39,480 nt of DNA from an uncultured Eubacteriales bacterium (lineage in GTDB: Bacteria; Bacillota_I; Bacilli_A; RF39; UBA660): the NCBI GenBank assembly GCA_900320505.1, contig ONSL01000004.1:1-39480 (forward strand), read 5' to 3'. The position numbers were made by a program, and so were the translations under genes. This document shows, in pieces, positions 2 through 2,878 of this stretch; position 1 is the first letter of the stretch; each line of letters starts with the position of its first letter. A model generated the notes under the pieces. It was not told the origin of the DNA, searched no databases, and was given only the letters and a program-made list of their open reading frames with translations.

Positions 2-262
2 TGGGATAGTTCAAGTTACAGTGATTGTAAAAATAATGATTATTTATTTGATAGTAGTCATTGGCAGTGGACCATAACCCCTTACTCGGGCAACTCCTAC
101 AACGTGTTCGGCGTCGGCAACCTCGGCGACGTGTACTGCAGCAATGCGAACGGCACGGGCAGCAGCGCCCTCGGAGTTCGCCCAGCAGTCTTCCTGAAGT
201 CCTCAATCTCAATATCTGGAGGCTCAGGAACAGAGACTGATCCTTATACTTTAAGTTTATAA
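2..262 (+). CDS. 3' end of a surface-type protein with GC-rich, DGR-like variable C-terminus (partial)
   Basis: The frame is open from base 2 to a TAA at 260-262; the start lies outside the window. The C-terminus reads WQWTITPYSGNSYNVFG, then a Gly/Asn/Ser-rich stretch, then GVRPAVFLKSS and GTETDPYTLSL. A terminal G(V/F)RPA(V/L)xL motif is typical of C-type-lectin/FGE-sulfatase-like folds used as targets of diversity-generating retroelements (family knowledge). From about base 64 to 205 the DNA is GC-rich, with many codons of the form NNC (AAC, TAC, TTC, GTC, CTC, GAC, AGC, GGC), whereas both the preceding codons and the rest of the window are very AT-rich. That pattern suggests a sequence copied in from elsewhere. 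No reverse transcriptase or template repeat is visible because the upstream DNA is missing. The reading frame is certain; the DGR interpretation is inference. Confidence 0.75.
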   Translation, partial: WDSSSYSDCKNNDYLFDSSHWQWTITPYSGNSYNVFGVGNLGDVYCSNANGTGSSALGVRPAVFLKSSISISGGSGTETDPYTLSL

Positions 263-274
263 TTAAATTACTTT

Positions 275-298
275 AGAAGGTCAAAATGGCCTTCTTTT
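275..298 (+). terminator. Rho-independent terminator
   Basis: AGAAGG (275-280) pairs with CCTTCT (290-295) around a short loop and is followed by a T-run. It lies 12 bp after the stop of the partial gene and just before mutS. Confidence 0.75.
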
Positions 299-328
299 GT
301 GTTATAATAAACTTTAGCGGGTGGTAGT

Positions 329-2878
329 ATGTCTCTTAAAGATGTTAATTATGATGATTTAAGTCCAATGATGAAACAATATGTTGATATAAAGAAAGAT
401 TATGAAGATTCAATACTATTTTTTAGACTTGGAGATTTTTATGAAATGTTCTTTGATGATGCCGTTTTAGCAAGTAGGGAACTTGAGCTTACTTTAACTG
501 GTAAAAATGCTGGCTTAAAAGAACGTGTTCCGATGTGTGGTATTCCACATCATGCTTATGCGCCTTATGTTGATACATTAATTAAAAAAGGTTATAAGGT
601 TGCAATATGCGAACAGTTAGAAGATCCTAGGACAACTAAAGGTATGGTTAAAAGAGATGTTATTCAAATAGTAACACGTGGTACAAGAATAGATGATCTT
701 GATGGTAAATCTAATAATTTTCTAGCATCTTTAGTTACTAATCCTACATGTTATACTCTTTCTTATGCAGATATTACAACAGGAGAATTTTATGTTAAAT
801 TAATTGATAAAGATAATGATTCTGCATTTAGAGATATTTCAAAGAGCTCTTTTTCAGAACTTGTTGTAGATGAAAATACAGATAGAGCTTTAATTAATGA
901 TATTAGAAAAAGATTAAATTTACTCGTTACAATTACTGATACAAATGATAGTGATATGTATTCTTATATTTATAGTGATATAGAAGATGAAAGATTAGTT
1001 AAAGGTATTAAACATTTACTTAGCTATATCATTTCTACTAAAAAGGATGATTTAGTTCATCTTCAAAAAGTAGTTGTTTTACATTCTGGAGATACACTAA
1101 TATATGATGGTGCGACTAAAAAGAATCTTGAACTTACAGAAACTATGAGAACTGGTGATAGAACTTATAGTCTTTTGTGGCTTCTTGATAAATGTAAAAC
1201 TGCAATGGGAAGTAGATTTTTAAAATACAATATTGAAAATCCTTTAACAAGTAGAAAAGAGATTGAAAGAAGGCAACATTTTGTAAGTCATTTAAGTGAA
1301 GAATTTATTTTAAGAGATGATTTAACTAAAAACCTTGATTCTGTATATGATCTTGAAAGATTAATCGGTAAAGTATCTTTTGGATCTTTAAATGCAAGAG
1401 ATTTAATACAACTTAAAAATAGTTTAAAGGTTATGCCTGAAATTAAAAGAATTTTAAAAGAATTAGATTATGATAAAACAGTAGATGATTTTAAAGATTT
1501 ATATGATTTACTTGAAAAATCAATAAATGAAGATGCTCCTCTAACAATTCATGAAGGCGGATTAATAAAGAAGGGATATAGTAAAGAACTTGATGATATA
1601 AAGTCTGAAAGTACATCATCTAAAGATTTTATATTAAATTTAGAAACTGAATTAAGAGAAAAAACAGGTATTAAAAATTTAAAAGCTGGATATAATAAGA
1701 TATTTGGTTATTATATAGAGGTTTCTAAAGGAAGCGTTAAAGACGTTAAAGAAGAGTATGGCTGGACTCGTAAACAAACTTTAACAACAGGTGAAAGATA
1801 TACAACACCTGAACTTAAAGAAAAAGAAAATATTATTTTAGGTGCAGAAGAGAAGATAATTAATCTTGAATATTCTTTATTTATGGATATAAGGGAAAAG
1901 GTTAAAACATATATTTTCAAACTTCAAAGTGCAAGCAAAGTTATAAGTGAAATTGATATGCTTAGAAGTTTTTCAATAATTGCAGATGATTATTCTTATA
2001 CTAAACCAGCATTTAATGATAATCATGAATTAAGGCTTATTGAGTCACGTCATCCAGTTGTAGAAAGAGTTATGAAAGATAAATATATCTCTAATGATAT
2101 TATAATGGATAAAAATACAGATATTTTATTAATAACTGGTCCTAATATGGCTGGAAAATCAACTTATATGCGTCAGCTTGCAATAATAGTTATAATGGCA
2201 CAGATTGGTTCTTTTGTTCCATGCAAAGAAGCAAATCTTCCAATATTTACTAAAATATTTACACGTATTGGTGCATCTGATGATTTAGTAAGTGGTGAGT
2301 CAACATTTATGGTTGAGATGAAAGAAGCATCTAATGCTTTAAAAGGTGCAGATGAAGATAGTTTAATTTTATTTGATGAATTAGGACGTGGTACTGCAAC
2401 ATTTGATGGTATGGCAATTGCTGATGCAATAATTGAGTATATTAATGAGAAAGTACATGCTAAAACGCTTTTTTCGACTCACTATCATGAACTTACTTTG
2501 CTTGAGGATAAGCTTAAACATTTAAAAAATGTCCATGTAGAAGCTGAAGTTGATGGAGATAGTATTACATTTCTTCATAAGGTTAAGAAAGGATCTGCAT
2601 CAGAGTCTTATGGTATTAATGTTGCATCTCTTGCAGGGCTTCCAAAGAGTGTAATTAAAAGATCTGAAGAAGTTTTAAAGAAATATGAAAAAGAAGAAAA
2701 AACTCCTAAAACAGAATATGCTCAAACATCACTTTTTGATTTAGAAGAGATGGAAGAAAATAAGAAAGATGATAGTTTAAAGAAAGAGATTGAATCTTTA
2801 AATGTAATTGAAATGACTCCAATGGATGCTATTAATTATCTATATAATTTAAAAGAAAAAATAAAGGAAGATAAGTAA
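329..2878 (+). CDS. mutS: DNA mismatch repair protein MutS
   Basis: MutS recognises mismatches and small loops and starts methyl-independent mismatch repair with MutL. The 849-residue length matches the family. The N-terminal mismatch-binding domain includes FFRLGDFYEMFFDDA (about residues 31-45), with the conserved Phe-x-Glu type contact in FYEMF. The connector and lever domains follow. The C-terminal ABC-type ATPase has Walker A GPNMAGKS (604-611), a signature/Walker B region (SGESTFMVEM, LILFDELGRGT) and the H-loop FSTHYHEL. A GGTGG-like ribosome site precedes ATG 329, and a TATAAT-like element lies at 303-308. It is the first gene of a close-packed run; its stop overlaps the next start (TAATG). 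mutL is not in this window. Confidence 0.97.
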   Translation: MSLKDVNYDDLSPMMKQYVDIKKDYEDSILFFRLGDFYEMFFDDAVLASRELELTLTGKNAGLKERVPMCGIPHHAYAPYVDTLIKKGYKVAICEQLEDPRTTKGMVKRDVIQIVTRGTRIDDLDGKSNNFLASLVTNPTCYTLSYADITTGEFYVKLIDKDNDSAFRDISKSSFSELVVDENTDRALINDIRKRLNLLVTITDTNDSDMYSYIYSDIEDERLVKGIKHLLSYIISTKKDDLVHLQKVVVLHSGDTLIYDGATKKNLELTETMRTGDRTYSLLWLLDKCKTAMGSRFLKYNIENPLTSRKEIERRQHFVSHLSEEFILRDDLTKNLDSVYDLERLIGKVSFGSLNARDLIQLKNSLKVMPEIKRILKELDYDKTVDDFKDLYDLLEKSINEDAPLTIHEGGLIKKGYSKELDDIKSESTSSKDFILNLETELREKTGIKNLKAGYNKIFGYYIEVSKGSVKDVKEEYGWTRKQTLTTGERYTTPELKEKENIILGAEEKIINLEYSLFMDIREKVKTYIFKLQSASKVISEIDMLRSFSIIADDYSYTKPAFNDNHELRLIESRHPVVERVMKDKYISNDIIMDKNTDILLITGPNMAGKSTYMRQLAIIVIMAQIGSFVPCKEANLPIFTKIFTRIGASDDLVSGESTFMVEMKEASNALKGADEDSLILFDELGRGTATFDGMAIADAIIEYINEKVHAKTLFSTHYHELTLLEDKLKHLKNVHVEAEVDGDSITFLHKVKKGSASESYGINVASLAGLPKSVIKRSEEVLKKYEKEEKTPKTEYAQTSLFDLEEMEENKKDDSLKKEIESLNVIEMTPMDAINYLYNLKEKIKEDK

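Follow-up and report, generated by a model that had tools for sequence, protein, structure and literature searches.

The GC-rich end of a lectin-like gene upstream of mutS as a probable remote target of a chromosomal DGR in an uncultured Eubacteriales bacterium

Why does a gene in AT-rich DNA turn abruptly GC-rich over its last codons? The question is raised by the start of the window, by which we mean the whole stretch of 39,480 nucleotides analysed here. An open frame at positions 2-262 (plus strand), whose 5' part is missing at the contig edge, ends there in GVRPAVFLKSS...YTLSL*. We found that the composition switch reported near the 3' end of this gene by the first-pass annotation is real: GC content is 65.8% in positions 78-188 versus 26.5% for the window, which makes this the most GC-rich 111-base stretch of all 39.4 kb (the best outside positions 1-300 reaches 45.0%). 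Rewriting of adenines by a reverse-transcriptase system is a known microbial means of varying displayed proteins, and the first-pass annotation had put forward the gene end as a candidate variable region (VR) of a diversity-generating retroelement (DGR). Our data indicate, with a probability of about 0.96, that window positions 78-188 (plus strand) are a remote VR of a chromosomal DGR whose template repeat (TR), Avd and reverse transcriptase (RT) sit on another contig, C6.

We searched window positions 64-230 against the bacterium's own genome (G000; 1.196 Mb, 88 contigs, 81.6% complete) and found six matching places, namely the window itself, one on contig C15, one on C74 and three on C6. On the minus strand of C6 (about 2180-2286), 0.2 kb upstream of a block of MSL, avd and RT genes, lies TR1, a copy of the VR that is rich in AAC and appears not to code for protein. 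Since AAC accounts for 16/35 codons of TR1 in the frame of the protein, the earlier remark that the NNC codons of the gene end lie within reach of AAC is literally correct. The 111-nt VR of the window departs from TR1 at 19/40 template adenines and 0/68 other positions (Fisher 2e-10), a count that excludes one in-frame 3-nt (one-codon) insertion. The insertion falls within positions 158-172 (plus strand) at an ambiguous site, and 13 gap placements leave zero non-adenine mismatches. Besides the window gene, two further genes bear VRs of TR1, with changes at 23/40 adenines and 1/68 other positions on C15 and at 17/40 and 1/68 on C74. When the three VRs are pooled by TR1 base, changes are found at 59/120 A, 0/108 C, 1/60 G and 1/36 T, and the replacement bases at adenines are skewed (38 to G, 15 to T, 6 to C). 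The differences that do not fit are the insertion in the window VR and the single non-adenine mismatch in each of the C15 and C74 VRs. The candidate VR thus has a template from which it differs almost only at adenines. The targets counted here are a minimum, given the incomplete genome.

The 3' border of the window VR is IMH-like (positions 173-197, plus strand): GGAGTTCGCCCAGCAG is common to the VR and TR1 and is followed by TCTTCCTGA in the window, where TR1 has ACTACATGA. Across the genome this pattern is present at exactly five places, one being TR1 and the others four target genes (VPs); a reversed-pattern control gave 0. The border is similar rather than identical, reading GTTCGCCCAGCAGTCTTCCTGA in the four VPs versus GTTCGCCCAGCAGACTACATGA after TR1. 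The C6 element probably acts in trans through it. The DGR element does not adjoin the window; the TR and RT are on C6 and the target is remote.

On C6 (3,326 bases), the order on the minus strand is a VP end, an MSL2-type ORF (119 aa), TR1, an MSL1-type ORF (116 aa) whose frame overlaps that of avd, Avd, RT and, last, a truncated ORF that matches MutS_I (1.5e-6). The RT for which the first-pass annotation had proposed a search is thus present (206-1261, minus strand), within an MSL-avd-RT block. It matches RVT_1 at 6.8e-22 and a phrog RT at 9.8e-69, carries a YMDD motif, and has 8ub7 (labelled 'Reverse transcriptase') as its nearest PDB sequence (E 2.4e-16). Among the phages in which tblastn found relatives are Bordetella, Faecalibacterium and nd12 phages. 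The RT is also matched, below cut-off, by general RT and group II models. Judged by these matches, the RT near TR1 appears to be of the DGR type. The Avd is matched by Pfam bAvd (6e-9; 36.8 bits versus a curated cut-off of 40), NCBIfam DivGenRetAVD (4.6e-7) and the phrog 'Avd protein of DGR' (3.3e-11), while curated NCBIfam cut-offs were reached by neither the RT nor the Avd. A PDB search with an Avd profile gave at best 2rld (E 0.067) and 4dwl 'Bbp7' (E 0.23), and one with the single Avd sequence gave no match. Likewise, Rfam at its gathering threshold gave no match in C6 and the window start. In L007 (minus strand), three MSL-type ORFs (1-196, 1588-1938 and 2389-2748) flank one avd-RT pair, and a GC-rich, hairpin-looking intergenic stretch (L007:2748-2964, minus strand) with no Rfam gathering match runs from the VP end to the 119-aa ORF.

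We asked how the region compares with that of a sister species, G001, in which the ortholog of the window VP likewise sits immediately before mutS. Its VR differs from the window VR at 19/40 TR1-adenine positions and 2/68 others, leaving identities of 21/40 and 66/68, respectively; elsewhere the two genomes are 71% and 59.5% identical in the VR flanks and 79.6% in mutS. The region is therefore not invariant, in keeping with the variability first proposed for it. If the VR were copied again and again from a similar template, just this combination would be expected, with conservation between hot spots and variation at the hot spots. A homologous TR1 locus was not found in G001, where the search gave two VRs and weak pieces only, and such sequences are present in 2/8 genomes searched within the genus (G000 and G001). 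In the G001 ortholog (L227:212-1570), the variable domain is preceded, in a fusion, by a region that to the eye looks like the small separate ORF upstream of the VP on C74 (L003:3-608). In the window, as in the sister species, the variable gene is followed immediately by a full MutS gene (329-2878 in the window). That mutS adjoins the variable gene while the DGR also encodes MutS-domain proteins is probably a coincidence.

Under the favored reading, TR RNA from C6 would be copied by an error-prone RT together with Avd, template adenines would become random bases in the cDNA, and the cDNA would take the place of the corresponding 3' end in surface-lectin genes scattered over the genome, among them the window gene that precedes mutS. 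We consider the DGR to be probably active at present. It is unlikely, yet worth weighing, that the C6 DGR wrote the VR formerly and is inactive now. The VR adjoining the RT on C6 would suit such an end, being shortened to 62 nt (46 nt less than the TR) and out of frame, which may reflect either real decay or an assembly artefact; its ungapped part differs from TR1 at 6/14 adenines and 1/31 other positions and was kept out of the pooled count. The DGR is, moreover, known here from a metagenome-assembled genome. Against inactivity, the RT and Avd frames on C6 are intact, and the non-adenine positions of the VR are 68/68 identical to TR1 while the flanks diverge between species, as if the VR were often re-copied. 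The genome also holds a second intact DGR, complete with VP, TR2, Avd, RT and MSL, on C57 (L043:8337-11862), beside a gene that we take to resemble spoIVA. TR2 differs from its own local VR at 12/27 adenines and 0/86 other positions, and no cross-match was found between TR2 and the window or between TR1 and the C57 VP. Scored against TR1 and TR2, the DUF6273-type places on C87, C34 (twice), C17, C13, C23, C61 and C32 did not exceed 11.3, on a scale where accepted TR/VR pairs score 33 to 97. Those on C34, C87 and C17 are further DUF6273-type paralogs, two of them adjoining on C34, and are matched by neither template.

Remote retro-copying from C6 would account for positions 78-188, and we asked whether it extends to the whole composition switch. 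The GC-rich flank continues past the VR to about position 228, and its sequence is absent from the TR, so retrohoming alone is insufficient there. A possible hairpin immediately 3' of the VR (193-228, plus strand) has a DNA folding energy of -6.6 kcal/mol (z -2.45). The same sequence lies 3' of the VRs on C15 and C74 (z of the C74 copy, -2.45, as in the window) and is not present in the mutS-linked ortholog of the sister species, L227. A hairpin or cruciform downstream of the VR is a feature of DGRs. Paralogs share an identical copy of this flank, which is missing from the TR, and several VP paralogs are nearly identical; both observations would suit gene conversion or cassette shuffling among duplicated lectin genes that spreads GC-rich 3' ends with no reverse transcription. 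We regard this as very improbable, since shuffling would not focus differences on template adenines (59/120 versus 2/204) and the AAC-rich, apparently non-coding template adjoins an RT and Avd. Of the two routes suggested at the outset, retrohoming fits and cassette exchange is not needed. A horizontally acquired GC-rich insert or an assembly chimera at the contig end is scarcely credible, for although the window starts inside a gene and contigs C15 and C30 both break within the repeated VP family, the VP-mutS junction is the same in the sister species and the GC-rich sequence is explained by a TR that G000 itself carries.

We questioned what kind of protein is being varied. The window VP fragment matches Pfam DUF6273 under the curated cut-off (E 0.0068), and the full-length paralog on C74, which begins with a hydrophobic segment as judged by eye, matches at E 5.1e-6. 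DUF6273 is a documented DGR target domain (PMC10743442, PMC11792537). A fold model made for a relative, L073, rather than for the cut window gene (23-sequence alignment, pLDDT 83.4) matches over residues 130-406 the N-terminal domain of an IgAse, 9qa6 (Z 17.2, rmsd 2.7, 200 aligned). The authors of this Thomasclavelia ramosa IgA peptidase structure term the domain C-type lectin-like (PMC12237041). Apart from a fimbrial protein at Z 6.9, which is no proof of anything, the structure-match list contained no other lectin fold. The VR spans residues 349-381 of the model. These data support a predicted C-type-lectin-like fold (DUF6273) for the VP family, which bears out the lectin likeness first read from the sequence of the gene end. 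The variants would be displayed outward and may bind ligands.

We next turned to the MSL proteins. Scanning a genome collection with the RT gave 316 relatives among 378 candidate stretches, and the best 80 of the 316, nearly all titled as Bacilli MAGs, were kept. An in-locus repeat pair with adenine-biased differences was found in 51/86 loci (the 80 and six more) by a simple scan without a formal null, in which some matches, such as the first one of L096, could be simple repeats by their appearance. An Avd-type ORF is present in 87/88 loci. Among the 51 loci (of 80) with at least 1.5 kb on each side of the RT, MSL1 occurs in 46 and MSL2 in 34, MSL2 never without MSL1. An MSL-like ORF was found in 1/80 viral RT relatives, using profiles trained on the bacterial set that divergent viral MSLs could escape. 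A model of L065 MSL1 (pLDDT 91.5) matches E. coli MutS domain I over residues 16-88 (Z 9.3, rmsd 3.0, 72 aligned; best Foldseek E 1.2e-3), so that MSL1 is predicted to be a MutS domain I fold plus an added helical hairpin. MutS_I matches 19/43 MSL members at E<=0.01. Against PDB sequences the MSL1 profile gave weak matches (MSH6 at E 0.19), and the claim of a MutS fold is therefore carried by the fold search. Phe-x-Glu is the mismatch-reading motif of MutS. Among 74 MSL1 rows with a residue there, the Phe is kept in 73 and the Glu in 7, which indicates that the MutS domain I fold is shared and the full motif is not. The MutS-domain-I-like accessory proteins may assist the process. A role as a shield from mismatch repair would fit the fold and the requirement that mismatched bases be retained. 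Since most MSL1 proteins have lost the Glu of the motif, we consider it no less likely that they serve as cofactors of the RT or the RNA.

The spacer 3' of the TR is conserved in 28 loci, where 87.9% of pair cells are paired and 32/35 pairs change on both sides; this was equalled by 0/500 shuffles, and slid controls give 38-50%. The structure leans towards these sequences, since it was drawn by script and then counted on these loci; the first automatic consensus fold had been confined to the region of the 3' hairpin (15 pairs). An RNA model of the spacer matches C6 and C57 in G000, all 27 training loci searched (by construction) and 33/60 loci outside training at E<=0.01, where E-values are rough and some of the 60 are near-copies of training loci. 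It matched 0/80 viral RT relatives. Tandem TR arrays with the same folded RNA after each TR were observed in L099 (3970-5050), L136, L132, L140, L078, L085 and L081, with four TR-RNA units each in L099 and L136. In the genome holding L099, remote matches have different TRs as their best fit. By non-adenine mismatches, L241 is nearest to TRb (7 versus 13-18), L242, the same-locus target, to TRc (4 versus 6-15), and L243 and L244 to TRd (8 versus 11-21 and 11 versus 20-25). L245 and L246 fit no TR of the array closely, L247 does not qualify as a VR, and non-adenine differences also exist among the TRs themselves, so the pairing of each TR with its own target is suggestive only.

Prior studies have described comparable systems. 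The Bordetella phage BPP-1 DGR (target Mtd, RT Brt, and Avd) shares adenine-specific TR/VR differences, an RT, Avd, a post-TR spacer and a lectin-like target with the present system (PMC12875486, PMC6642488), and its folded spacer recruits RT and Avd (PMC12875486). Unlike BPP-1, the present system has several remote targets, resides on a Bacilli chromosome, encodes MutS-I-like proteins next to Avd and has a spacer RNA of a lineage-specific family with no Rfam gathering match. The Treponema denticola DGR likewise has one core element with targets far off on a bacterial chromosome, whereas its accessory gene has an HRDC domain in place of the Avd and MutS-I-like proteins seen here (PMC4891356). 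Gut phages nd4 and nd12 and Faecalibacterium prophages also carry the VR inside a DUF6273 C-type-lectin-like domain (PMC10743442, PMC11792537), while the proteins here belong to a bacterium, and the full-length paralog has a membrane segment at its N terminus. MSL (PF01624) proteins of MutS domain I type have already been reported as DGR accessories (PMC10053308); in contrast to those, a single element here often carries two different MSL-type genes, each at a set position relative to avd-RT, an arrangement of which we found no account in the literature searched.

The mechanism of DGRs is already known, and the lineage-specific parts are the interesting portion. We can picture DGRs of this Bacilli lineage as a genome-wide engine of surface variation, in which structured-RNA templates, sometimes in tandem and each with its own remote lectin gene, would be copied in trans while MSL1 and MSL2, stand-alone MutS mismatch domains that accompany the RT, would protect the mismatched cDNA:target heteroduplex against mismatch repair and so let adenine changes persist; as a whole, this picture is doubtful. 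In the window, a remote DGR target is seen on a contig that yielded neither an RT nor a TR. A 2021 global survey states that its own approach was unable to detect such remote targets (PMC8144416), and target counts in gut Bacilli may therefore be underestimates. Furthermore, MutS-fold proteins beside avd-RT bear on how DGRs spare mismatched cDNA from repair, and the conserved TR-spacer RNA bears on what marks the template RNA.
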